Shown here in pieces: positions 574-15,819 of a DNA stretch of 64,000 nucleotides. The position numbers were made by a program, and so were the translations under genes. Source of the DNA: Celeribacter sp. HF31 (GTDB lineage: Bacteria; Pseudomonadota; Alphaproteobacteria; Rhodobacterales; Rhodobacteraceae); assembly GCF_011806455.1 (NCBI RefSeq), contig NZ_JAATOT010000002.1, positions 488,493-552,492 of the forward strand, in the 5' to 3' direction. The notes under the pieces are model-generated. The model did not search any database and had not been told where the DNA came from. It worked only from the letters and a program-made list of their open reading frames with translations. Positions within the stretch are counted from its first letter, which is position 1. Each line of letters starts with the position of its first letter.

Positions 574-1272
574 TCACTTTACCGCAGATTTCAAGCTCAT
601 CCGCTTCTTTAGTGCCGTTGCAACCTCTGGCTTCAATTCAATCTTTGAGATGAGCTCAGAGAAACTATTTCCGTTGTAAATGCCGTAGTCCTTGCGCGCA
701 GTTTCTTCGATGCTGATCCTCCAGTTTTCAGCATCAAGAATAATGCTTCCAGCGTCAAATAGTCGATGTAGGTCTGCGCGGAGAGGGATACCATTCCAAG
801 CCTCATCCCCACCACCGCAAGATACAGGTATTATGTGCGCGGCCTCCAATACTGCCAAGGTCTCGCATCCAGAAATCAGACAACGCGCACCAAACATCTC
901 GAATACCTCACGTCGAAACTTAGCTTGCCGTGGCCGCTGCCAGACTTCGGCTAGTCTGCGTTGCCGCTCTGCTGCGATCTCAGCCTCGTTGCTCGCATTT
1001 TCGATCAGTTGAAACCCAAGTTTCTCGAAGTACTTTCGAAAAACGTTTGTGATAGGGTTATCGGTCATGGGATTTCCGGCGAGCTCATTAGCAAGACGAC
1101 CTAATGGCTTCACAGGGTAAGCCACACCTTCATGCATTAAGAAGCCGGTACTGGACTTTCGCATCTGCCCATTTGGCTTGGGATAATTTTCATACAGCCA
1201 AGCTAGCCCTTCGGCTTTCACACGGTCGATGGCCTCTTCGGCTTGATTTCGATCAAAGGTCAATTCGGTCAT
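574..1272 (-). CDS. HNH endonuclease domain protein
   Basis: This is a 232-residue protein with a C-terminal HNH_2-type nuclease motif. It shows a cysteine-rich entry (C-L-I-S-G-C), then L-E-A-A-H-I-I-P, W-N-G-I-P-L-R-x-D-L-H-R-L-F-D; the A-A-H, W-N-G and D-L-H residues would be the H-N-H catalytic set. The N-terminal ~110 residues are charged and unrecognised and may bind DNA or a partner. ATG at 1272 was chosen, with GAGGG upstream; an in-frame TTG at 1308 would add 12 residues. The protein lies in a defence-like island and points toward the XRE pair. It could be a type IV-like restriction nuclease or a homing-type enzyme. Confidence 0.82.
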   Translation of the reverse strand: MTELTFDRNQAEEAIDRVKAEGLAWLYENYPKPNGQMRKSSTGFLMHEGVAYPVKPLGRLANELAGNPMTDNPITNVFRKYFEKLGFQLIENASNEAEIAAERQRRLAEVWQRPRQAKFRREVFEMFGARCLISGCETLAVLEAAHIIPVSCGGGDEAWNGIPLRADLHRLFDAGSIILDAENWRISIEETARKDYGIYNGNSFSELISKIELKPEVATALKKRMSLKSAVK

Positions 1273-1425
1273 CTTATCAGTATCATCCCTCAAACTTGCT
1301 GATCGCAAAACTATCGTAACCTTGCTCTGGTGATAATCCCTGAGCGAAGGCTACTTCGGCCCAAACTAGACCATTACCCTAGCATCAAAATGCTGCAGCG
1401 CTACTCTCGAAAGCGTACATCCATA

Positions 1426-4400
1426 TCAAGGGTGCCAGCGCTCACCCACAGCGGCCTGCTCGTCTTCTCGACGGGCATCCCATTCATACCCTTCAGCAAT
1501 TGATATGAGGCTTTCCGACAAACGGGGGTGGGAGTTTCCATATCTAGCAGCAAGCTCTCGATAACGCTCGGCAAGCCTGCGTTCTTGCGCTCCGCCATCA
1601 TACGGGCTGCGCATCGTTACACCACGCGCATTGCGAACCCCCATACAGAACCGCTCCCTTAGTCCAGCAGATTCAGAGCCATCTAGGCAGTCCAAGATGA
1701 CATCTGGCAACCAGTCGTCCCAGGGCCGTCTCCTCGCCATCCGCGCGAGCAGGGCTCCTAGATGGGTTTCGGCGAATTCCTTGCGGTCAGCATCTCTAGC
1801 AAGTTGAAATGCACTTTCCATCCAGGCGTTGAATTGATCAGATGAAACTTCACCATCCTCGTCGGTACCAGGAACAGCATTCCACCCCTGAAGCGAATGG
1901 TATGCTAAGTCGGCTAAGAACTCTTTTTTCTCTGCAGAAAGCTCTTCTCGCTCCGGTTCATCTGCACCATCCCGACGACGGTAACGCCAGCAAAGTAGCT
2001 CAGCAAAGAGATTGGGGTCACGAGCAAGCTCTCGGTGCAATGCCAGCGTTCGTTCGTTATCTCGATGGCCGTGTGGGCACAAAAGTTTGACGAAGGGCAG
2101 TTCTAGGTTGGCGATTTGAGCATTAGTTATAGCTTCGTCTTCATGAAGGAACTTAAATACTTCATCTAACTCGTAAGAGCTTGGAAGCGGCCCATCCAGC
2201 TCCTCTCCGCGAGCAATTGCTTGCAGGGCATCCACCCAATGGGTGGCTGAGATTTTGTGTTTCCACAAACAAACGGCTGAGAATGCGGATCTCGGCCTCT
2301 GGTATTCGAGAAGCTTTGTAACGGCGTATTCTACTTCGTCGGATGGGGTGTCACTCCAGATACGAATTGATGCCGAATTCCAGAAGGCAGCCGCAACATC
2401 ATCCCCGAGGCTTTCCGCGACTTTCCAGCCGACTGAACGCCCCGGAAGGTGTTCCGCAAACCTCTGGCGGACCGCTTTACCTTCAAGAGCTCCTTGTTCC
2501 TTCAGGCTATCGGCCACGGCGGCAAGGTCGACCCACCCTGCACTCGAAAGCAGTTGCCGCAGGAAAGCATTGGACTGATCATTTTCCTCGGTGCGCAGCG
2601 CAGCCGAGACCCAGTGGGTCGACGTTTCCATTGCCGCATCTTGCGGTACCAAGACTAGAGCTACCAGGTCGGGTTGCTTCACGCTAAGCGCAAACGGAAG
2701 AACGGCTTGATCTCCCAATTGCTCCCTTATTTCAGCGATAGAGTTTCTGCGGCGTTCTTCGACAAGTTCGTTTTTCTCCTGCCATGACAAGCGCCCATTT
2801 TCATCGTCTTCCACCAGAGCGCGCCACTCAACGTGGGAGCTTTCAAACAGCCAACGGTGGCGAGCAGTCGGCGACTGAGGGGTCAACACCTCTTCCATAC
2901 GTCTAAGCGCTGCTGCTAATTGTTCGTCTTCTTTTCCGTCCTGATATGCGCGAAGAACATCGCGCCGACGAAGGTTGTGCCGAAGATCGGCTTTGTCCTC
3001 ATCGGTTGCTGTCTTTGACCAGTTCTCGACTTCGACTACTAACCGAGTCAGGTCATCAGGATGAAGACGTGTCGCAATTTCCAACAGCCGTTCAAGTTCC
3101 ACCTGATCAAAGGGAGCCATGTCCAGTAGCAGGCGGCTGGCTTCAACCGCCGATGCGCGGACATCCGCATCTGTCGGTGACGGCACTTCTGCATCCAATG
3201 CTCGCCATTGCGGCCTCGCGGTGCGTGACGCGAAATTTGGACCACCTCCTGGAAGAAGAGAGATGCAGACGTCCATCACAGGGTGGCGGAACTGTGCAGA
3301 CAAGCGCCGTAAGACAGTCGTCCTTTCCGTGGCGCTAAGAGCGGTGGCAGGCAACCAAGCTCTGAACAGCGCACGGGCCGTTAATTTCGGCGAGTTCGAA
3401 ACATTGTCTTCCACCTCCAAACGGCGAAGCCCAAAGACTATCTTTGCAACACGTGAAAAGTGAACTGGATGCCAGGCCAAAAGCTCAAGCGCCCAAAGCA
3501 AATTTGTCCGTAAGCACTCACCGCTTACGATGCCTTCAGTGGTTCCCATAATGGCGCGTATGGCCGGTTCCGGCTCTCTAAGCTCAGCTTCGAGGCAATC
3601 TAGGAACGCAGATGGCGATGCCTCCGCCAATGCACGCAAATGCCCCCGGATGGAAAGCCAACGTTCTTCATCTGCACCTTGCATTAGGGACCTAACGACT
3701 TCCCCAGCACGGTATGCGAGATCAACTTCCAACCTGTCACCGCAGATTTCTGCACCATGAACGGATAGAATGCACAACGCGTCGCCGAGACCGGAAAGCA
3801 GGGCTCCCGAAAAACTTCGCGCGTGCCCCAAAACATTGGCCATGTACCACTGATCTTGAGGTAGGTCTAAGGCGGGGTCTCTATCGCCCAGCAACTCCGG
3901 CAAGAGTTGAAAGAAGCGGTCCAAATCGTCTCTACTTATGTAATGCCCTACGGCAAAAAGCGCGTCGATTTGTGATACAACGACATTCACATGCCCATAG
4001 CGCGCAATTGGTGCGTCGTTCAGAGCGAGCAGTTCGTCTCGAACTGTATCTACTTCACCATCCCGAAAATCACCTAATAGCTGTAAAATTGTGCTATCAT
4101 CCAGGTTCTCGCGCTCGACCCAAGAGCCTGCCACTGCAAACGGGAGAACACTTTTTGCCGCTGCGCGATCTCTAACCCAACTAGGCCGCCGAACCTCAGG
4201 ATCATCGGAGAGCTGACGCCGCAATACAGGAACAGAATGGCCAACTTTGATGGAGAGGTTGTCCGCGTCATCACGCGATAGCCCCATGCTCTCAAGTTCA
4301 GCGCGAAAGGTTTCTGAGGGCACGTGCGAAAGCAGCAACGCCTCCCTGACGTCTAAACGCCCCTTGGAATAGGCACGGACAATCGTCAAATTTCGTCGAT

Positions 4401-5217
4401 CACCAAAGTCTAGCTCCTCCCCATCTTCGACATCCGCAACGACAATAAGGTGGTTTGCGCTCGTAGGAATTCTGACATCGCGAGATGTGGCAATAACTGT
4501 CTTATCGAGGAGATCGAGGGCATCGGCTTCGATCATCGTCGCAACGACAAATGCAACGGCCTCCCGTCTATCGTCAGCTTGAACCGGGACTATCGGCTCT
4601 CGGTCACGAAGCTTCTGCAACAACACGCTCTGCTCGTTGTGTCGCCTAGAAGAAACAAGCTTGATGGACAATGGCGGCACCGAAGCTGTCGCCCAACTAT
4701 TCCACCATTCGTGAGGTGTCTTCAGCCCAGGCCAGGTGACACCCAGCTTTTCACCCAGCCAACGGGCCGTCGCAGGCGCTTCTTCCAGCCAAGTTTCAAG
4801 GTCTATGGCGTCGAACGCCTCAACGGTCGCCCAAGCGCCTTCACCACGACGCTCTTCAAGCCAGTCTTCTTTTCCGTTCCACCTCCTCGGCGTCACGAAG
4901 ACGAATGCGCTATTCTCTCGCTGGTCTTTCGGCGTTGAGTCAGTTCTCTTTAGATAATCACCATCGGCTTTACTTCGAGGGTCTACATTACAACCCATTT
5001 CCCATACGCTTCTACCTTCCGGCACCCAAACAGTAGCGGCTTCACATTCAACTTGACCGTCAAGCCCAGGCAAATCGACCGCCTCGTTTCCGGGAAAGCG
5101 CATCGAGACAAGGGATTTCGCGGTCTCTCCAATCAGGCGACGAATAAGTATTGGTAGGTTGCTACGGCATTCGTGGCGGCCGGCCCATTGGCGTATTGCA
5201 GTTTCATCAACCGGCAT
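1426..5217 (-). CDS. Large protein with N-terminal PD-(D/E)XK nuclease signature and degenerate STAND-like NTPase region
   Basis: This 1263-residue protein is the largest gene in the island. Near the N-terminus D53 (G-L-D-G), E73 (W-E-M-G) and K83 (S-K-A-D) are spaced as in PD-(D/E)XK/Mrr-like nucleases and are followed by a beta-strand F-V-F-V-T-P. Around residues 200-300 lies a stretch with the beta-alpha pattern of a P-loop NTPase (P-I-V-P-V-Q-A-D-D-R-R-E-A-V-A-F), but with no GxxxxGK[ST]. The remaining ~900 residues look alpha-helical and repeat-like and are rich in Leu, Glu, Asp and Arg. This layout resembles nuclease-STAND antiphage proteins, but I cannot name a family. The start at 5217 has a GAGG Shine-Dalgarno; the frame stays open to 5418. 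Confidence 0.75.
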   Translation of the reverse strand: MPVDETAIRQWAGRHECRSNLPILIRRLIGETAKSLVSMRFPGNEAVDLPGLDGQVECEAATVWVPEGRSVWEMGCNVDPRSKADGDYLKRTDSTPKDQRENSAFVFVTPRRWNGKEDWLEERRGEGAWATVEAFDAIDLETWLEEAPATARWLGEKLGVTWPGLKTPHEWWNSWATASVPPLSIKLVSSRRHNEQSVLLQKLRDREPIVPVQADDRREAVAFVVATMIEADALDLLDKTVIATSRDVRIPTSANHLIVVADVEDGEELDFGDRRNLTIVRAYSKGRLDVREALLLSHVPSETFRAELESMGLSRDDADNLSIKVGHSVPVLRRQLSDDPEVRRPSWVRDRAAAKSVLPFAVAGSWVERENLDDSTILQLLGDFRDGEVDTVRDELLALNDAPIARYGHVNVVVSQIDALFAVGHYISRDDLDRFFQLLPELLGDRDPALDLPQDQWYMANVLGHARSFSGALLSGLGDALCILSVHGAEICGDRLEVDLAYRAGEVVRSLMQGADEERWLSIRGHLRALAEASPSAFLDCLEAELREPEPAIRAIMGTTEGIVSGECLRTNLLWALELLAWHPVHFSRVAKIVFGLRRLEVEDNVSNSPKLTARALFRAWLPATALSATERTTVLRRLSAQFRHPVMDVCISLLPGGGPNFASRTARPQWRALDAEVPSPTDADVRASAVEASRLLLDMAPFDQVELERLLEIATRLHPDDLTRLVVEVENWSKTATDEDKADLRHNLRRRDVLRAYQDGKEDEQLAAALRRMEEVLTPQSPTARHRWLFESSHVEWRALVEDDENGRLSWQEKNELVEERRRNSIAEIREQLGDQAVLPFALSVKQPDLVALVLVPQDAAMETSTHWVSAALRTEENDQSNAFLRQLLSSAGWVDLAAVADSLKEQGALEGKAVRQRFAEHLPGRSVGWKVAESLGDDVAAAFWNSASIRIWSDTPSDEVEYAVTKLLEYQRPRSAFSAVCLWKHKISATHWVDALQAIARGEELDGPLPSSYELDEVFKFLHEDEAITNAQIANLELPFVKLLCPHGHRDNERTLALHRELARDPNLFAELLCWRYRRRDGADEPEREELSAEKKEFLADLAYHSLQGWNAVPGTDEDGEVSSDQFNAWMESAFQLARDADRKEFAETHLGALLARMARRRPWDDWLPDVILDCLDGSESAGLRERFCMGVRNARGVTMRSPYDGGAQERRLAERYRELAARYGNSHPRLSESLISIAEGYEWDARREDEQAAVGERWHP

Positions 5218-5638: not shown

Positions 5639-8600
5639 GTGGGGGCAAAATCCAAACATTACAATTGTTGGATCAGTACTTTGAGACATTCGAAAAAACT
5701 CTATCGCCTACTCTTTGGGATTCTGTCTGCTTTGCTTGTGGCCGTTCAAGTTTCAGCCGATGAGTGGAATTGGCCCGTAGAAGAACTTGAATATCTTTCA
5801 GCCGAACAATCCACACCCAATAATTCACAGAATTTCGGTGCTTACCATTTCAGCCGAGCGCTATACTTGAATATCTTTTCAAAGCTGGAAGAAATCGATC
5901 CGAAGCCGAACAACCCTGCTTATTTGAATGAGTACTGTGACGTCTTAACGGGAGAATTCGAAGCTGCTGAAGAGGATCTTGCATTGGTTGCTGGTGCGGT
6001 CATGGGTCGAGTGTATAACGGTAGCCGATGGACGTTAAATTCAAGTGATATCCCGGCCGTATTCAGCCCCATTTCAAACATATGGGACAGCGTGGAAGAA
6101 GGCGACCATCCTGCTCTAAAGGCACTTGGCTCGATGGTTAAGCACTATGCGGAAGCGAAGTCAATTTTCTCATTTGCGGTTGATAGTTGTGATTTACTCA
6201 AAAGAGATGGGTATCTATTCGAGTCTTCCCGCCTGGAGATCTCGGGCAACCAGTTCGGCGCGGTATCAGAGATTTTGCAAGCTCCCGAACAGCTTTCAAA
6301 ATTTAGAACTTTTGCTCAAAACTGGATTTCACAACTTCCAACAGCCGAATATTTGGAAATGGGCATACCCGCCGGTATCTACCACTTCAGCGACGCTGAA
6401 CGGCTAGAGGATCAGACCGATTCTGATCAGAACTACCTCGGTCTCCCCCAGCGAGTTGATCCGAATAGGGCCGTGTATGAATATGTGTGCGATAGGCCGG
6501 ATTCGGGACATGAGTTTGAATGTCGTAACGTAGAACCGTTAGGCGCGGAAAAGCTGCTAGTCCAATTATTGGAAAGCACACCCACGATAGGGCTTTATGC
6601 CAATGACGAATTTTTATCGCGAGTTTTGGCACAATATTCGGCACTCTACGGAACCGCCCCCAAAACTCTTAGTTTTAAAAATTTGGCCATAAACATCGAT
6701 CTAACGGAAAGTGGGATAGTTATTCCGTCCATTGAAATCCATGGTGTTGTTAGTGGCTCAATTTTCTTTCTACCAAGCAACTTCAATGAGATTGAAGTAT
6801 CTAGATCGATAGTTCATGACTTGAATTCAGAACGGTTTGATGTCGATGAGAACAAGGCATCGCCTATGAACTTCAGCGTGACCGAGACCCAAATGGGTTT
6901 TCTGAATTCAGACAACCTCAAAGCAAGCACGGTTTACATCCGAGGTGTCACGGGCATTCAGCAGTATCTTATCAAAAAACTTTCAGATTTCGACCCTCAC
7001 TCGTTCGGCGATCCAACCCAAGACCAATCCTTATGTGCAGGAGAGGACGCGCAAACAGGCCAACAGTTGGGCGCTAGATTATCCATCGAAAACGCACATT
7101 TCGAATGGTTCACGATGCGAGACAGCTCCATTTGCTCTTTGGACTTGGAGGGCTCGAAGACCGAGTACGATGTGGAAATATCGAACACACGGGTCGGGCA
7201 AGCTGTCTATTTGTCCTCCGCAAAAGCTCGAGGATTCGATCTTGAGAAAATTACCGGAGTAAGACCGGAAAGGACCGAAGAAGATGATAGCAGCTTTCCA
7301 ATTCTAAACATGTATGATGCGGACGTGGAGGAAGAAATCAGCCTCTCGGACATCACCGGATTTCACGACATCCGCCTGAGAAAAACAACGTCAAGCGTCA
7401 TTAGGATCAACCGTGGCCACATATCCGGCACTATGAACTTGTGGGGAGCTAAAGCTTCACAATTATTTCTAGACAATTTCAACATCGATGAGACTCTATC
7501 TTTTTGGTACGCTAACATCGATGCAATTCAGCTTGGCGGTGAGGACGGTGAAATCGCCAAAATCGCGCGCATCGAGGCGCCGCATCTGCGCTCACAACTT
7601 CAATTAAACCTAGGTGACCTTGAGACAGAATTTCTTGATTTTTCCAATGCTCAAACGGGTCACCTGAGATTTACATGCGTAAAGGTGTCAGGTCCGGTCT
7701 ACATGACGGACGTTCGCAACGACGAAGTTGTTTGGTTGGATCGCGTAAATGCTAAAGGTGCGTACTTCGGTGGCCTACACTCCCCCAAACTTTACACGCA
7801 CTATAAACCTCAAACGTCGACCGGCGCCGAGGACATGGATAGCGCGAATGAAAAGGGCGATCAGCAAGAAGAAAGCGATGCCGAAAGCAATACCCGTTCC
7901 GTTTCAAAATCTGCGGAACACTGTGCAAACCTAGAAAATCGATTTGGCGTTCTTCATCTAGAAGAAAGCCAAATAGAAATCGCACAAATCAATGTAGAAA
8001 TCAGCCATCAATTGATATTGAATCGCGCCAAGATCGGCAGCTTAACCATGGTACACGCCCTCAGTAAAATTTCGGAAAATGCCTATCTCAATTTCCGCCA
8101 AGCGACGATCGGCTCAATTCTTTTACCGAAGGACTATTTTGGAAAAAACGGAGCGGGAAAGCGCCCATTCTTGGATGTAACGGGAGCTGATATTGGCTTC
8201 TTCCAAATTGCCAGCGCCCAAGATGAGTCTTCTACCGGTATGAGGGATGGTGCCTTGATCCCTGTAAATCTGGAAGAGATTATAAAACAAAATTCAAGGG
8301 ACGCGAAGCTCTACGATGCCTTCTTATTTGACAGTCTTCTCCCCGCGCTGCGCCAATCCCCGGAGTTTTACTCAACCGCGGAGTATAACGCGGAAACCTA
8401 CGCTATCGTCCGAAACTCCCTGCAACGACTGGGATTATTCGACCTGTCGCGAAAAATCGCGATCGAACAAAACGATCACTATCGAGCTGCCACGAACGAA
8501 AGAGCAACAAAAGTCATTTACGGTTTGGGTCGCGCGCTTACACGGTACGGTTATGAGACCTATCGAGCGGTGTTCTACTTGCTTGGCCTTTGGCTGGCCG

Positions 8601-8896
8601 GTTTCGCAGTCTTACTGCTGGACCAGATTCTGATGCTTAGAAAACAAGATGGAAAACTGCATCGACCCAAATTGTGGGAAGCACTCAACAAATGCGTGTT
8701 TTATAGTCTGGACAGAACAGTTCCAACGCTAGTGCTCGACGAAGTATTTAATTCTCCGGCGACCAGCGGCGACCGCCCCTACAGAGCGCGCACTCAAACC
8801 AGTGCCTGGGTGATTTCAGTGTTGTATATCCAGCGCATGCTCGCGTTTTTGGTTATAGCATTCGCCATCGGAGGCCTGTTCAATGTGTACCAATAG
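5639..8896 (+). CDS. Membrane-anchored beta-helix-like protein, uncharacterised
   Basis: This is a 1085-residue protein. A signal peptide or N-terminal anchor (L-L-F-G-I-L-S-A-L-L-V-A-V, then V-S-A before D-E-W) precedes a very long extracytoplasmic-looking region. From about residue 330 to 860 it shows irregular 18-22-residue repeats of alternating hydrophobic strands (I-x-L-x-x-S, L-x-L-x-x-x-x-I) like a right-handed beta-helix or degenerate pentapeptide solenoid. Near the C-terminus is a helical segment (Y-A-I-V-R-N-S-L-Q-R-L-G), then a hydrophobic stretch at about 980-1005 and another at about 1060-1083. The start is GTG 5639; TTG 5681 would give a more canonical signal peptide. Codon use is AT-rich, unlike its neighbours. 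No catalytic motif was found. Confidence 0.7.
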   Translation: MGAKSKHYNCWISTLRHSKKLYRLLFGILSALLVAVQVSADEWNWPVEELEYLSAEQSTPNNSQNFGAYHFSRALYLNIFSKLEEIDPKPNNPAYLNEYCDVLTGEFEAAEEDLALVAGAVMGRVYNGSRWTLNSSDIPAVFSPISNIWDSVEEGDHPALKALGSMVKHYAEAKSIFSFAVDSCDLLKRDGYLFESSRLEISGNQFGAVSEILQAPEQLSKFRTFAQNWISQLPTAEYLEMGIPAGIYHFSDAERLEDQTDSDQNYLGLPQRVDPNRAVYEYVCDRPDSGHEFECRNVEPLGAEKLLVQLLESTPTIGLYANDEFLSRVLAQYSALYGTAPKTLSFKNLAINIDLTESGIVIPSIEIHGVVSGSIFFLPSNFNEIEVSRSIVHDLNSERFDVDENKASPMNFSVTETQMGFLNSDNLKASTVYIRGVTGIQQYLIKKLSDFDPHSFGDPTQDQSLCAGEDAQTGQQLGARLSIENAHFEWFTMRDSSICSLDLEGSKTEYDVEISNTRVGQAVYLSSAKARGFDLEKITGVRPERTEEDDSSFPILNMYDADVEEEISLSDITGFHDIRLRKTTSSVIRINRGHISGTMNLWGAKASQLFLDNFNIDETLSFWYANIDAIQLGGEDGEIAKIARIEAPHLRSQLQLNLGDLETEFLDFSNAQTGHLRFTCVKVSGPVYMTDVRNDEVVWLDRVNAKGAYFGGLHSPKLYTHYKPQTSTGAEDMDSANEKGDQQEESDAESNTRSVSKSAEHCANLENRFGVLHLEESQIEIAQINVEISHQLILNRAKIGSLTMVHALSKISENAYLNFRQATIGSILLPKDYFGKNGAGKRPFLDVTGADIGFFQIASAQDESSTGMRDGALIPVNLEEIIKQNSRDAKLYDAFLFDSLLPALRQSPEFYSTAEYNAETYAIVRNSLQRLGLFDLSRKIAIEQNDHYRAATNERATKVIYGLGRALTRYGYETYRAVFYLLGLWLAGFAVLLLDQILMLRKQDGKLHRPKLWEALNKCVFYSLDRTVPTLVLDEVFNSPATSGDRPYRARTQTSAWVISVLYIQRMLAFLVIAFAIGGLFNVYQ

Positions 8897-9098: not shown

Positions 9099-11750
9099 CT
9101 ATCTCCCTAAAGCCGCCATCACTTGCACCCGTACCTCCTTCGGATCGCCGCGTTCCATCGTCGCCATAACGAAGACAGCCTTGCCCCCTGACGCCTTGGC
9201 CCACTGCTGGCCGATCAGCTCCTTCTCGCGGCTGTCGCGGCTTTCTTCCGGAGACAACTGCTTGCCCTTGTATTCGACCACCAAGAGATGGCCATCCTCC
9301 ATGACGGCCACGAAATCCGGGTAGAACTTGTCGGTTGAGGTCGGCAGCGAGAACGAGTTTGGATGCCTGCTGACGTTGCGGGTCCAGTATTTCAGGCCCG
9401 GCAAGGCATCTAGCGCCAAGGCGCATTTGACCTCTTCGCCGCCATCCTTGCTGTCGAAGGTCGGCACTTCGTCCGGTCCCATGAAGTGCCGGTTGAACTT
9501 GTACATGCCCCGATACTTCGGCACGTCGAAATACATCTCGTCGAAGAAGCGGATGCCGTCATCGAACGACACCTCGACACGCGCCTCGGGGCCGAACAGG
9601 TTCATCTGGTAAACCTTGTCGCGCTCCATCTGGCGGAACCCCCTGATCTTCTCGTTCAACTTGCGCGCCAGGATGAACTTGCAGCGCATCAGCTGCGATA
9701 GGGGGATATCACGGTCGCGGTTTAGATGGGTGACGACATCGTTCAGCCAGGCCAGAAGCTCCGCCTGTCCGATCCATGGGTCGCGCACCTTACCGTCCAG
9801 CCAGCGCACCAGCGAGTTCGGCGTCCAGTCGTCTACGTCGATGTCCAGGGAAAGCTGCTCGGAACTGTCCGCCGCCGAGATTGACAGGTGGTTGCCGTCT
9901 AGATCGATCTCGAAGGTGTTGGTCGTCTCGACAATATCGAACTCTGCCTTGGTCAGTCGCGCCGGGTAATTGGCCAGCGACCAATCGTGATATTCCATCA
10001 GGATATCGGTATCGCCAAAGACCAGCTCACCCTGCACATGCGCCATCAGGCGCGGCACGGTGAATTCTTCACCAAGATGGGCGGGAGCCAGATCGTCGGC
10101 GTGCTGCGCCTTGAACGCATCCAGTTTCTCACGCAGCACGCCATGCAGGCGCTCAGGGGCCGTCTTGAACAGTCGCTTTTCATCCTTGGGCTTGGGCACG
10201 CCGGTGAACTCGATCCGGGTCTTGCCGTCATCTCCCGCCGACACCGTGATCTTGCCTGGCGCGACACCTCCGATCTCCTTGCGCTCCGCCTCGGAGGCGT
10301 CCAGCTCCACCGTCATCGTCGGACGCGGCCGGGTTTGCCGTCCGAACAGCCCGTCATCAAGCCCCGGCTGCTCTGCCTCGATATTGTCTTCCGCTTCGCC
10401 CTCTTCGAACCCCATATCGACCAGCTTGTCGCGCAGACTGACAGCGGCCTCGGAGAAATGCTTCGACACCAGCTTGGCGTAGGACTTGTTCAGCGCCGGT
10501 TCCTTGCGTTTCGTGGCATAGGGCATCCGTAGCACCCGGCCCAGAAGCTGTTCGGCATCGGTCGAGCTGCGGATATTGGCCAGCGAGCAGAACACATAGG
10601 CAAAGGAACAATCCCAGCCTTCTTTCAGAGCCTCGATGGTAATGACATATTCAATCGGGCAATCGGGCTTGAACAGGTCGATCCCGTCCAGATCACGTTG
10701 CGCGCCGGTCGCCACGGCGATCTTGACCGGATCAATATTCTCATTGTCGATCAGATGCTGTTTCAGCACATCGACCGTGACCTCTTCGCCCTTCTTCTGG
10801 GCCTGAAACAGTACGATGGGCCGGATATAGCCCTCCCGGTCCAGATCGGCGTACTCCTGCAACTCGGCGCGTTTCAAAATGGCTGAGTTTACCGCCCCCT
10901 GCCAGGTTTCCGCCTCGTCCAGCACCACCGGCATCTTGATCATCTCTTCATCCTTCAACTCCTGCGCTGTCACGGAATGAAGGATGTTGTTGAACCCCTT
11001 AGGCGTTGCGGTGAATTCGATGCACGCGCTCGGGTTGATGCGCTCATAGACATCCTGGCTGAGGTTCGTGCCCGCCTTGTGCGCCTCGTCCATGATCACG
11101 AGCGGGCGGTGCAGATGCATCAGGTTGGCAAAGCTGAACCGGATGCCCCCCGTCCCGTCGACCTCAGTCCGCTCAAGCCCCGGCGTGTTGGGCGACACGG
11201 TGCTGAAATGCCCCTCCAGCATCTCGTGATGGGCATAAACTTTGCGCCCATCCGTGTTGGTCACCCGAAGCGTCTGGATCGTGCCGACCACGACACAGAG
11301 GTTCGAGCGCAGGTCATGCGGCGTGATCTGGGTGAAATCACCAATGTCGAACACCCGCACGCGGCCCTCGAAGGCCTCATCCAGCACCTGCCGGTACGGG
11401 TGGCGCGGGTTTTTCAGTGCTTCTGCGGTCTGGATACGGATCGTGTTCGTCGGCACCAGCCACAGCACCAGTGGGAAATCCTTTTCCACCCAGGCATCCT
11501 TCGCCACGGTAATGGAATGCGCCGCGAGGATCGTCTTGCCGCCGCCCGTAGGCAGACGCAGACAGACATAGGGCACCTCTGGCAGGGCCTTGATCGGCTT
11601 GTAACCCGCCGCGTAGCCCTTGAGCCGTTTCGCCAGCTCCGGTTCTGCCGTCAATGCCTCATAGGCCGGTTTCGGGCCGGTGATGCGGGCCTCCTCAAAG
11701 AACCGGCGCAGCGTTTTCAGGGACTCCTTTTGATACTGCTTGAGCTTCAT
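9099..11750 (-). CDS. res: Type III restriction enzyme, Res subunit (DEAH helicase-nuclease)
   Basis: This 883-residue protein is the ATP-dependent restriction subunit that acts with Mod to cut DNA beside head-to-head recognition sites. The N-terminal SF2 motor shows Walker A L-P-T-G-G-G-K-T and a DEAH box (V-I-M-D-E-A-H-K). Later helicase motifs include S-x-T-D-A-E-Q-L-L-G-R-V-L-R-M-P. The C-terminal nuclease core is P-D-F with E-Y-K (PD...ExK) near residues 815-840. Its ATG overlaps the mod stop by 4 bp, so the subunits are translationally coupled. A weak GC hairpin about 55 bp past the stop may end the transcript. All key residues are intact. Confidence 0.93.
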   Translation of the reverse strand: MKLKQYQKESLKTLRRFFEEARITGPKPAYEALTAEPELAKRLKGYAAGYKPIKALPEVPYVCLRLPTGGGKTILAAHSITVAKDAWVEKDFPLVLWLVPTNTIRIQTAEALKNPRHPYRQVLDEAFEGRVRVFDIGDFTQITPHDLRSNLCVVVGTIQTLRVTNTDGRKVYAHHEMLEGHFSTVSPNTPGLERTEVDGTGGIRFSFANLMHLHRPLVIMDEAHKAGTNLSQDVYERINPSACIEFTATPKGFNNILHSVTAQELKDEEMIKMPVVLDEAETWQGAVNSAILKRAELQEYADLDREGYIRPIVLFQAQKKGEEVTVDVLKQHLIDNENIDPVKIAVATGAQRDLDGIDLFKPDCPIEYVITIEALKEGWDCSFAYVFCSLANIRSSTDAEQLLGRVLRMPYATKRKEPALNKSYAKLVSKHFSEAAVSLRDKLVDMGFEEGEAEDNIEAEQPGLDDGLFGRQTRPRPTMTVELDASEAERKEIGGVAPGKITVSAGDDGKTRIEFTGVPKPKDEKRLFKTAPERLHGVLREKLDAFKAQHADDLAPAHLGEEFTVPRLMAHVQGELVFGDTDILMEYHDWSLANYPARLTKAEFDIVETTNTFEIDLDGNHLSISAADSSEQLSLDIDVDDWTPNSLVRWLDGKVRDPWIGQAELLAWLNDVVTHLNRDRDIPLSQLMRCKFILARKLNEKIRGFRQMERDKVYQMNLFGPEARVEVSFDDGIRFFDEMYFDVPKYRGMYKFNRHFMGPDEVPTFDSKDGGEEVKCALALDALPGLKYWTRNVSRHPNSFSLPTSTDKFYPDFVAVMEDGHLLVVEYKGKQLSPEESRDSREKELIGQQWAKASGGKAVFVMATMERGDPKEVRVQVMAALGR

Positions 11751-13291
11751 CTGCGGGCCTTCACATCATATGGGGTTTGTTTGAATTCGATCTGTTCGGC
11801 TTTCAAGGTCGCCTCGGACAGCGCCGTGCGCTCGCCATAGACGGTCAGCGGGCCGGTAAAATCGCCCTGTGCCGCGCGGATCACGGCCAGCGTCTTGCGG
11901 GTCAGGACGTTGCCGCCCGAAACCGATTTGTCGCCAAGAATACCGTTGTAGAGCAGGGCATAGCCCCGGCCCTCCTGCGCCCCAAGGAAGGGGCTGAGGG
12001 GCTTCGGCTCTGACCACGGACTGCCGGTTTCGGCGAACCAGATATGGGCGGCCAGCACGGGAAAGCGGATATCGGGCTGGATCTGACCATCTTCGGTAAA
12101 GACCGGAGGGCCGAGGCGGTAGAAACGGAAGCCACCGCCGCCTTGCCAGTTCTGGACCTTGGAAATCCCGCCCTGCTCGCCGTCGATCACCTTTTGCAGA
12201 CGCGGCGCGCAATGGGTGACGGCATGATCCCCCATCTCGATCCCGATATAGCGGCGGTTCATTTTCTGGGCGACGGCGGCAGTGGTGCCGGAGCCAAGGA
12301 AGCTGTCGAGCACGAGGTCGCCCGGGCTGGTAGTCATCTCCATGATGCGTTCCAGAAGCCTCTCGGGCTTAGGTGTCCCGAATGGCTTCGCATTCAGCGC
12401 AATCTGCTCTTTTCGTCCATCTTGGGTATGCCCCACATCACCCCAAAGCCAAATGGTTTGGGGCACAGCGCCGTCATCTTCGACGTCTGACAAAAAGCGC
12501 TTGTAAGCAGGCACCTTGTTCTTGCCGGTCTTGCCCCACCATAGACGATTCTCTTTTGCGTGACGCTCATATTCGTCTTTGCCATAGCCCCAGACACGCG
12601 TAGTTTTGGGCCAAATCTCTTCACCAGTAAAAGGATTGGTGACAGGATAATATAAGTTGGGACGTTCCTCGGACGATTTCGCACAGGTATAGTCGCCCGC
12701 CTTCCATGGGCCTCTTGGATCGTCATCCGGATTTTTGTAGGCTGCGTTCGATTTCTCGCTTCTCGCGAGTTTATTAGGTCGCCAAATCGCCTTAGATTTC
12801 GCAAAACCCATCAAATGATCGTGGTTGTCGCTTAGCCAAATTGCGTCGTTTGCAGGTGCATACTTCTTTTGCCAGATGACATTAGCTACAAAATTCCCAC
12901 GCCCGAACACCTCATCCATGATGACCTTAAGGTAATGCCCTTCCCGGTCATCAATGCTCACCCAGATCGAGCCATCCTCGGCCAGCAACTCCCTCAGCAG
13001 CTCCAGCCGGGGCCACATCATGGCCAACCATTGCGAATGCTCCAGATTGTCGTCGTAATGCTCGAAGGCCGATCCGGTGTTATAGGGCGGGTCGATATAG
13101 ATGCATTTCACCTGACCCGCGTAATAGGGCAAAAGCGCCTTCAACGCCTCAAGGTTATCGCCCTGGATCAGCATATTGCCCGCATCCCGGTCACCATAGC
13201 CCAGCTCAGCGGCCTCCTCCAACAGGCGGTAAGGCACCTTCTCAGCGGCGCGCACATCGTCGTCTCGGGTCAACCAGCGTAGGGTGGGCAT
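11747..13291 (-). CDS. mod: Type III DNA adenine methyltransferase, Mod subunit
   Basis: This 514-residue protein transfers a methyl group from S-adenosylmethionine to adenine and supplies sequence recognition to Res. Motif IV D-P-P-Y-N-T-G lies near residue 68 and motif I (D-S-F-L-G-S-G-T-T) near residue 310, the beta-class order. The variable stretch between them (about 150-280) is the likely target-recognition domain. It is somewhat shorter than the 600 or more residues of EcoP-type Mod proteins. I see no simple-sequence repeat at the 5' end of the kind that makes some mod genes phase variable. The gene precedes res with an ATGA overlap. Confidence 0.93.
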   Translation of the reverse strand: MPTLRWLTRDDDVRAAEKVPYRLLEEAAELGYGDRDAGNMLIQGDNLEALKALLPYYAGQVKCIYIDPPYNTGSAFEHYDDNLEHSQWLAMMWPRLELLRELLAEDGSIWVSIDDREGHYLKVIMDEVFGRGNFVANVIWQKKYAPANDAIWLSDNHDHLMGFAKSKAIWRPNKLARSEKSNAAYKNPDDDPRGPWKAGDYTCAKSSEERPNLYYPVTNPFTGEEIWPKTTRVWGYGKDEYERHAKENRLWWGKTGKNKVPAYKRFLSDVEDDGAVPQTIWLWGDVGHTQDGRKEQIALNAKPFGTPKPERLLERIMEMTTSPGDLVLDSFLGSGTTAAVAQKMNRRYIGIEMGDHAVTHCAPRLQKVIDGEQGGISKVQNWQGGGGFRFYRLGPPVFTEDGQIQPDIRFPVLAAHIWFAETGSPWSEPKPLSPFLGAQEGRGYALLYNGILGDKSVSGGNVLTRKTLAVIRAAQGDFTGPLTVYGERTALSEATLKAEQIEFKQTPYDVKARR

Positions 13292-14429: not shown

Positions 14430-14633
14430 ATGGTCAAACTCGACAGGCTCGCCGTAGAGGCGAAAGGCGCGGCGCGGATGTTGTCGATGACTGTTAGGGA
14501 GTTCCTGTTTCTCGTCGAACAAGGCGCACTCCCACCGCCGATCCAGCTAGGAAAGCACACCCTCTGGGTGGTGGCCGAGATCGAGGCGGTCCTGACGGAC
14601 AGCAAAATTGAGCCGGAGGCGTTTGTGGTATGA
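14430..14633 (+). CDS. AlpA/HTH_17-like small DNA-binding protein
   Basis: This 67-residue protein has a helix-turn-helix arrangement (A-A-R-M-L-S-M-T-V-R-E-F-L-F-L-V-E-Q-G) followed by the P-P-P-I-Q-L-G-K-H-T-L-W wing. The wing pattern P-x-x-x-x-x-G...W is characteristic of AlpA-type prophage regulators and excisionases. ATG 14430 follows a GAGG at an 8-base distance. GTG 14418 in frame would overlap the previous gene. The stop overlaps the integrase start by 4 bp, so translation is coupled. Confidence 0.72.
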   Translation: MVKLDRLAVEAKGAARMLSMTVREFLFLVEQGALPPPIQLGKHTLWVVAEIEAVLTDSKIEPEAFVV

Positions 14634-15727
14634 AGCGCCCCAATCTTCCTTATCTCGAAATCAAGACCGTCAAGGGCAGAACCTACATCTATTTTCGCAA
14701 GGGCAAGTTCCGGGAGAGGTTGCCTGACGACCCAGATACCGAGGAATTCGCCCTGAAATACTGGGCTATTCGTAACGGGAAGAGCAAGCGGATCGTCAAA
14801 ACTACGTGGGAAGCGCTGATCGTCAGTTACTATTCCAGTGCCGAGTTTAAGGAATTGGGCGATGACACAAAGAAGAACTATCGCCGTCATTGCGAAGATA
14901 TCCGTGAGAAAAATGGTTCAAAGGATGTGCGGCACTTCAAGCGAGCCGATGCGCTGCGTGTGCGAGATGAGCTTAAAGACACTTGGTCAAAGGCTAACGA
15001 GCGGATCGCTGTGCTGTCGATCCTCCTGCAGCGGGCAATGGATCTTGAGTGGGTTGACCGCAATCCAGTGGCAAACATCCGCAAGCTCAAGGGCGGCTCT
15101 TATAAAGCGTGGCCTGCAGCCACGTTGGAAGCATATGAGCAGCACTGTGAAGATCATGGTCTGTCGGTCGCTCGGACAATCTATGAACTTGCGATCGGCA
15201 CGGGCCAGCGGCTCGGGGATTGCGTAGCGATGAAGTGGGATGATTTTGACGGTGAATATATGTCGGTCGTTCAGCAAAAGACGGGCGCTAAGATCGACGT
15301 TTACTGCCCGGCGCGATTGCAGGCCTATCTTGCTGGGCTTCCCCGGCGCGGAAAGCACATTCTTGCCAAGAACGCGACCGAACCGCTTGGCAAGCGGCAG
15401 GTGCAGAAGGCCGTAGAGAACGTGCGCGAAGCGATTGGCGTCAAGGATGGGGATGACAGGTTGGTGCCCCACGGGTGGCGCTACACGGCAGCCAAGGAGA
15501 TGGCCGATGCGGGTGTCGATATCCGCGACATCCAATCGGTGACGGGGCACAAGACCCTTGAGATGGCTCAGAAATATGCTTCCGGCGCGGATCAGAAAAA
15601 GGCGTCGAAACGGGCGCAACAGAAGCGGGAACAAAACAGCGACAAACCCGGAAAGTGCGAAACAAATTGCGAAACTTCGCCGGTGTCGCGGGGGCAAACA
15701 AAGGAGAATCCTGAGAATGATCAATAA
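14630..15727 (+). CDS. int: Tyrosine recombinase (island integrase)
   Basis: This 365-residue site-specific recombinase has an N-terminal SAM-like core-binding domain (about 55-160) and a C-terminal catalytic domain. The catalytic set is visible: Arg in G-T-G-Q-R-L-G-D, Lys in Q-Q-K-T-G, His and Arg in H-G-W-R, His in T-G-H-K and the nucleophilic Tyr in Q-K-Y-A. The last ~45 residues are a polar Lys/Gln/Asn-rich tail. The stop lies 9 bp from the 3' end of tRNA-Leu, so this enzyme most likely inserted the island there. Its start overlaps the preceding DNA-binding gene. Confidence 0.95.
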   Translation: MKRPNLPYLEIKTVKGRTYIYFRKGKFRERLPDDPDTEEFALKYWAIRNGKSKRIVKTTWEALIVSYYSSAEFKELGDDTKKNYRRHCEDIREKNGSKDVRHFKRADALRVRDELKDTWSKANERIAVLSILLQRAMDLEWVDRNPVANIRKLKGGSYKAWPAATLEAYEQHCEDHGLSVARTIYELAIGTGQRLGDCVAMKWDDFDGEYMSVVQQKTGAKIDVYCPARLQAYLAGLPRRGKHILAKNATEPLGKRQVQKAVENVREAIGVKDGDDRLVPHGWRYTAAKEMADAGVDIRDIQSVTGHKTLEMAQKYASGADQKKASKRAQQKREQNSDKPGKCETNCETSPVSRGQTKENPENDQ

Positions 15728-15735
15728 TTTCAAAG

Positions 15736-15819
15736 TGGTGCGGGTGAAGGGACTCGAACCCCCACGCCAAAGGCGCCAGAACCTAAATCTGGTGCGTCTA
15801 CCAATTTCGCCACACCCGC
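15736..15819 (-). tRNA. tRNA-Leu (anticodon UAG)
   Basis: This 84-nt cloverleaf is read on the minus strand. The acceptor stem is GCGGGTG paired with CACCCGC, the anticodon loop is TTTAGGT between CCAGA and TCTGG (anticodon TAG), the T-loop is GGTTCGAGTCC, and CCA is encoded at 15736-15738. The variable arm is the short class II type seen in alphaproteobacterial leucine tRNAs. The 3' end faces the integrase, so the gene doubles as the island attachment site (attR, within about 15736-15785). Confidence 0.96.

Follow-up and report, generated by a model that had tools for sequence, protein, structure and literature searches.

A predicted one-protein nuclease receptor built on an inactive STAND core in a genomic island of Celeribacter sp. 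HF31

We describe a large protein encoded in a 64,000-nucleotide stretch of the genome of the alphaproteobacterium Celeribacter sp. HF31 (contig NZ_JAATOT010000002.1, positions 488,493 to 552,492; henceforth the window), in which a predicted nuclease domain is fused to an inactive STAND core, a winged helix and a helical solenoid. Its gene occupies positions 1426..5217 on the minus strand of the window and codes for 1263 amino acids followed by a stop. We consider it fairly probable that the protein serves on its own as an antiphage nuclease receptor: on binding a phage component, the solenoid would free or gather the nuclease domains without an ATP cycle. The reading frame runs from an ATG at 5217, preceded by GAGG five bases upstream, to the stop at 1426; upstream of the ATG it stays open for 67 more codons, and the best eight rows of our homologue list (P0001-P0008, the protein's own record included) measure 1263 amino acids each. 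A plus-strand reading of the same interval holds 42 stops and was rejected, and the host genome contains a single match to the protein. Comparison with Pfam and NCBIfam yielded nothing convincing (best E 0.086 and 0.1, respectively), and no helix-turn-helix (HTH) family was found in the protein in Pfam at E up to 1. Sequences of the PDB likewise gave no convincing match, the best hit of a 98-row profile being to about 30 residues of a kinesin light chain (E 0.16), and a search of the open-licence PubMed Central literature for this architecture brought up no recognised description. PADLOC returned no family at E up to 1, Avs profiles included, and an earlier reading of the sequence alone (the sequence-only reading), which had spoken of an unassigned defence type, was right in this respect.

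The N-terminal region (residues 1-160; 4738..5217, minus strand) is predicted to be a PD-(D/E)XK-type nuclease domain. Structure prediction and fold search assign to it a restriction-endonuclease fold with an alpha/beta nuclease core, nearest to that of the FokI/MspJI-type restriction enzymes, and the fold covers residues 40-90, around which the sequence-only reading had staked its case. That reading had named D53, E73 and K83 as a plausible PD-(D/E)XK site, and the triad itself stands: all three residues, whose codons were checked at 5059..5061, 4999..5001 and 4969..4971 of the minus strand, are present in each of the 52 cluster representatives at 60% identity and in 211 of the 214 aligned members of more than 1200 amino acids, the Celeribacter protein included, which form our conservation set. 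The exceptions are P0020, with another N-terminus, P0234, which is N-terminally incomplete, and P0175, in which the lysine is replaced by glutamine; in a later batch the triad recurs in 40 of 43 proteins, the remaining three being without the N-terminus. Conservation of this degree in the alignments is far above chance. One point needs correction, as K83 is not an ExK lysine of the canonical kind: of the 52 representatives, 43 have G and 9 have S at position 75, and K83 lies on the helix following the E73 strand, as defined by DSSP on the model. This displaced lysine also distinguishes the domain from FokI and MspJI, as does the remaining chain, which aligns with STAND and HEAT proteins.

Residues 173-445 were modelled as a STAND/NLR fold close to Avs3, CED-4 and the plant NLRs, with Avs3 as the top match (E 2.3e-9) and the CED-4/NLR chains aligning as far as residues 429-450; the resemblance to STAND antiphage proteins that had been guessed from the sequence is thereby borne out. 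The model, the fold search and the alignment together point to a STAND NTPase-like domain devoid of a P-loop at residues 173-340 (4198..4701, minus strand). In the model this STAND/AAA-like fold is followed by a winged-helix part at residues 345-445 (3883..4185, minus strand), placed after the NTPase domain as in STAND proteins and common to the different effector types discussed below; helices 301-343 come after the last strand of the domain. The loss of the P-loop, also proposed earlier, is complete in the sequences examined: GK[ST] is found at the P-loop position in none of the 214 long members and in none of the 43 proteins of the later batch (three of which lack the region). The Walker motif is hence eroded, as judged on Walker A, and its place is taken by a conserved 'aDs.eEA.AF' turn and helix start (residues 215-223, D215..E219 A A F223; 4549..4575, minus strand), around which the model has a strand to residue 214 and a helix from 217. 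As E219 is present in 52/52 and D215 in 50/52 representatives, a conservation stronger than a purely structural cap needs, this turn might bind a nucleotide or small ligand and make the domain a switch of new chemistry in place of a dead NTPase. However, D-S-x-x-E is a usual helix cap when it occupies the first helical turn, and the length of a P-loop is gone; such a switch appears distinctly improbable to us.

The remainder of the protein (residues 446-1263; 1429..3882, minus strand) is predicted to form a HEAT-like helical solenoid, the presumed sensor: in the AlphaFold2 model (pLDDT 92.1 and pTM 0.78 for residues 320-1263) it is a continuous, almost wholly helical array, in agreement with the long helical region of the sequence-only reading. 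As fold searches with the solenoid recovered generic HEAT/karyopherin-type matches only, they permit no guess as to the trigger. Averaged over 39 close homologues, identity to the Celeribacter protein amounts to 0.723 in the nuclease domain, 0.773 in residues 446-640 and lowest, at 0.567, in residues 831-1150 (1768..2727, minus strand), and this most variable stretch behaves in the way expected for a sensing surface. Alignment further reveals a C-terminal motif, N.RG........GG..E (residues 1196-1212; 1582..1632, minus strand), in which G1199, G1209 and E1212 are found in 214/214 and R1198 in 212/214 long members.

The strongest new evidence for the nature of the protein is that the killing part varies on a conserved body, i.e. 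an architecture of receptor and effector. In Salipiger aestuarii (P0020) and Pseudooceanicola endophyticus (L008), both Rhodobacterales and represented by separate records, the homologues are 74-75% identical to the Celeribacter protein from residue 164 onward; their first ~180 residues, 97% alike between the two, have no relation to the nuclease and show one hydrophobic helix followed by polar sequence, which suggests a probably membrane-inserting, non-nuclease N-terminus. A further set of relatives (L045-L047, L066, L081 and L085; type B) bears, ahead of the winged helix and solenoid, a different N-terminus of ~280-295 residues, marked by the patterns 'SNP.STG.GG..FE...QA.FV.LML.GG',.TDD and D..QIK/QVK and lacking a Pfam name; by eye it looks like another, apparently undescribed, PD-DExK nuclease, and no NTPase-like domain is recognisable in these proteins by sequence. 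In yet another arrangement, found on the Buttiauxella plasmid pBTX_57 (L067, 8869-11643) and on a viral contig (L050, 7653-10475), an effector-less receptor has only ~40 residues ahead of the winged helix and no room for an NTPase domain. Directly upstream of the plasmid-borne receptor lies a gene for a HetE-N protein of ~106 amino acids (8549-8869; Pfam HetE-N E 1.5e-40), whose counterpart on the viral contig (7342-7656) is 51% identical. The end of the HetE-N protein (QNHSGTGDN..G..KI) resembles the start of the receptor (QNHTGTGHNVAGD and QTHSGAGHNIARD) in these two loci, such that the junction-facing ends of both proteins have a common motif, QxH[ST]GxGxN, which may be amyloid-like. It is as if the two proteins assembled together by way of a candidate signalling motif pair, and in this they are like the EAD and amyloid-motif receptor-effector systems, whereas the Celeribacter protein carries its effector in cis. 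A 13-row alignment shows homology of the winged-helix/solenoid part across these types, with E187, W230, E233, N851, R853 and E867 invariant (numbering of the first row); in the numbering of the Celeribacter protein, the invariant positions include N1196, R1198 and E1212 of the C-terminal motif. Since the N-terminus is exchanged on a kept body, the architecture is receptor-like, and the N-terminus would be the effector and the rest the receptor.

These exchanges bear on two other explanations. One is that the protein is a restriction-like enzyme, whose winged helix and solenoid read modified or foreign DNA directly and which cuts without an infection trigger, as the proximity of its nuclease fold to the FokI/MspJI-type enzymes and the restriction genes among its neighbours might suggest. 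Yet, in two genomes, the same body is joined to a domain that is not a nuclease and probably inserts into membranes, and in two records it is accompanied by a separate HetE-N protein; moreover, triggered receptors have just this STAND layout. Hence, we hold this to be rather unlikely. The other is that the dead STAND domain itself senses nucleic acid of the invader and signals to the nuclease, with the solenoid as only a scaffold. The NTPase-like domain is indeed among the less conserved parts (mean identity 0.339 to the Celeribacter protein over the other 213 members), a passage in Kaur et al. 2021 proposes nucleic-acid receptor roles for inactive STAND domains (PMC8195603), and a sensory role has been proposed for BrxB/BrxF of the BREX systems in a part of PMC12839542. 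Nevertheless, this explanation too seems unlikely, given that the plasmid and viral-contig receptors leave no space for such a domain and none can be recognised by sequence in the type B relatives, which makes sensing simpler to place in the solenoid, and that the most variable stretch of the close homologues also falls in the solenoid.

Returning to the nuclease receptor, we infer that it acts in antiphage defence and does so independently of ATP. The protein would remain silent until a phage component binds to the solenoid, whose most variable stretch is residues 831-1150; this binding would release or gather the nuclease domains, while the dead NTPase domain might serve as a clamp, hinge or assembly scaffold. 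The resultant cutting of phage or host DNA would cause the infection to fail and thereby protect the population.

The protein displays affinities to several known systems. The order of effector, STAND domain, winged helix and helical repeat sensor is that of the Avs (AVAST) antiphage STAND proteins, in particular Avs3 and Avs5, and the effector of Avs3 is a nuclease. In contrast to Avs proteins, ours is devoid of Walker A and of any PADLOC match, and the residues of Walker A are described as essential for Avs5 in a passage of PMC12931631. PD-Lambda-4_A (PDLC03991) is of similar length and by eye begins with a nuclease-like part, continues with a P-loop domain and is helical over the remainder; a table in one review places PD-lambda-4 under P-loop NTPases (PMC10952713). 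Its similarity to our protein is faint and confined to the solenoid (hhalign probability 65%, E 6e-5), and the match of the Celeribacter protein to the PD-Lambda-4_A profile (E 8.4e-4) extends over positions 559-664 only, i.e. ~106 positions, short of a full-length match. A true PD-Lambda-4_A member exists on the same contig of the same genome, ~361 kb away (G000 C6:124808-128632, L069; E 3.1e-299), and differs from our protein in its intact GLSGVGKS P-loop and in its nuclease-like motif. On comparison with this member, we rejected the PADLOC match of the homologue P0158 to PD-Lambda-4_A as an identification. A STAND fold with eroded NTP-binding motifs is also typical of the iSTAND modules of the MoxR-vWA and BREX (BrxB/BrxF/PglW) systems, for which passages of PMC8195603 and PMC12839542 propose a function as sensor of invaders or as switch, and which are at times fused to a nuclease (PglW); these modules work in multi-gene systems and, according to PMC12839542, are without the C-terminal helical bundle. 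Our protein differs from them in being a single protein that has kept the winged helix and added a solenoid of ~800 residues. Thus, both STAND nuclease receptors (Avs and PD-Lambda-4) and inactive STAND modules are already known, and the present family joins the two in one chain; since it lacks defining features of each of the three groups (Avs, PD-Lambda-4_A and multi-gene iSTAND systems), we regard it as a variant and not as a member of any of them.

Of 7992 candidates scored in one homologue search, 188 proteins reached E <= 0.001, and 120 of these are listed. By their records, members and relatives come from Rhodobacterales, rhizobia, Bacillota, Actinomycetota, Bacteroidota and Enterobacterales, and the matches listed in two profile searches include Salmonella, Klebsiella, E. 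coli, Pectobacterium, Pseudomonas and a record of Nitrososphaerota. The family is present in 10/289 genomes of the class and its C-terminal profile in 12/398 genomes of the phylum (its own genome included in both counts), in 23/72,556 plasmid records, 18 of which cover at least 80% of the protein, and in 1/50,697 phage records. In E. coli, a nuclease-type relative occurs in 204/5426 complete genomes, in 125 of which the match at one place extends over at least 80% of the query; IS3 elements lie under the match in all 15 rows listed of the 204, and in the one genome opened the IS3-split gene stands beside an integrase (L086 9001-15269). Type B is found in 8/5426 E. coli genomes, near prophage tail-fibre genes in both of the two opened. 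With members at prophage and island sites as well, the homologues are not core genes, another point on which the sequence-only reading had made itself open to refutation; the family is accessory, mobile and patchily distributed.

The window places the gene in just such a mobile setting. A tyrosine integrase (14630..15727, plus strand; Pfam Phage_integrase E 1e-19) adjoins the tRNA-Leu (15736..15819, minus strand) into which the element is inserted and which recurs as a partial copy 22.5 kb leftward, outside the window; an exact 17-base repeat, GGCGCCAGAACCTAAAT, is found at 15772 and at C6:481772, embedded in a longer, imperfect repeat of the tRNA part. Together, the integrase beside the tRNA and the partial copy indicate an element of ~22.5 kb, in accordance with the integrase-borne island recognised earlier. 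The defence genes reported next to ours are also there: downstream lies a gene for an HNH_2 endonuclease (574..1308, minus strand; Pfam HNH_2 E 2.7e-11), and further to the right are the Res (9099..11750, minus strand; PADLOC REase_III E 7.7e-174) and Mod (11747..13291, minus strand; PADLOC MTase_III E 3.3e-189) subunits of a type III restriction system. Between these, a gene oriented divergently to ours (5639-8896, plus strand) codes for a 1085-amino-acid protein with four hydrophobic stretches, two of them near its C-terminus, and without a match in Pfam, NCBIfam or PADLOC; it is possibly another unnamed defence gene. A gene for an XRE regulator is also nearby. To the left of the window, the same element includes a HipA kinase gene (G000 C6:485475-486764; Pfam HipA_C E 1.9e-50) and a sequence that matches Mob_Pre weakly, with an E of 2.7e-5 that narrowly misses the Pfam cut-off; by eye, small HTH-type frames are visible at ~50-500 of the window, which may be partner antitoxins of HipA. 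A Pfam scan of seven window neighbours and four left-hand island proteins showed no MoxR-vWA pair and no PglZ/BrxC.

None of the HNH, 1085-amino-acid, Res, Mod, XRE, integrase and Mob proteins has a tblastn match at E 1e-8 in 73 loci of relatives, and HipA has one in a single locus of the 73. A two-gene system with the HNH endonuclease, which we had entertained, was therefore dropped, and as the neighbours in the window are not conserved elsewhere, the protein most likely works alone. A defence-named gene nonetheless accompanies the family in 7/10 annotated plasmid windows versus 2/10 control windows on the same plasmids (Fisher p 0.070). These ten are drawn from the first 12 regions, L021 and L024 having been left out as they have no gene tables; three further plasmid regions with partial or other-type relatives were uncounted, the control windows were placed by hand about half a plasmid away, and one control (L123) with lone DNA methyltransferases was scored as negative (if positive, 7 versus 3). 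SIR2, type I restriction-modification and Shedu/SLATT genes appear once each in this set. In 14 genomes, a PADLOC comparison by neighbour protein gave at least 7/119 versus 3-5/117, a small contrast from a weak test: 3/122 test and 41/158 control open reading frames were omitted (40 of the latter thinned by hand, about every fourth, and one by size), some control contigs were short, and 25 of 32 families were seen, many of the 32 being models of the same few AbiE proteins. As a Pfam scan of the same 119 neighbours shows mostly metabolic functions among the families listed, the neighbourhoods in these genomes are mixed and not pure defence islands.

One association is more specific. In 4/73 loci and in 0/24 control regions, an AbiEi/AbiEii pair stands head-to-head with a long member of the family, some 100 bases off (L023 7079-8594, L025 7076-8610, L093 6365-7896 and L102 7346-8868); the compared pairs are 50-83% identical, which indicates recurrent association in place of a single event. 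AbiE systems are phage-defence genes themselves. The family members in L023 and L025 are annotated as helix-turn-helix proteins. While 174/214 members have at most 20 extra N-terminal residues, 35/214 have an extension of 61-130 residues, in many cases with a HigA-like HTH recognised by Pfam. In P0158, P0246 and L026, the HigA-like HTH is replaced by a DUF433, DUF2442 or HTH_17 extension, which perhaps provides self-regulation of a dangerous gene. Database names such as HigA family antidote and XRE regulator would make the protein a regulator or a component of an addiction module, and these extensions, the AbiE pairs and the other toxin-antitoxin genes nearby in L027 and L029 could be cited in favour. 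We deem this very improbable, however, because the HTH is optional, absent from the Celeribacter protein and elsewhere supplanted by other domains, because 69/73 loci have no match to that AbiE pair, and because no AbiE family was detected among the scanned proteins of the window.

Known STAND/NLR receptors, from Avs to the plant resistosomes, are thought to require nucleotide binding for both the off state and assembly. In the family described here, the P-loop is erased in all examined members of the nuclease branch and the NTPase domain appears to be gone in sister branches, and yet the killers seem interchangeable, comprising two apparent nuclease types, a probable membrane domain and a HetE-N protein. 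We therefore tentatively raise the possibility, less secure than the reading of the single protein as a nuclease receptor, of a widespread NLR-like receptor class lacking an ATP switch, which would be activated by ligand-driven shape change or assembly alone. The family could then help to show how a receptor stays silent without a nucleotide switch, and its natural effector exchanges separate the sensor from the killer. A protein that Pfam, NCBIfam and PADLOC leave unnamed belongs to a large natural family in which the receptor layout and the nuclease site are retained and the P-loop is missing, and this would make the dispensability of the nucleotide switch directly testable.

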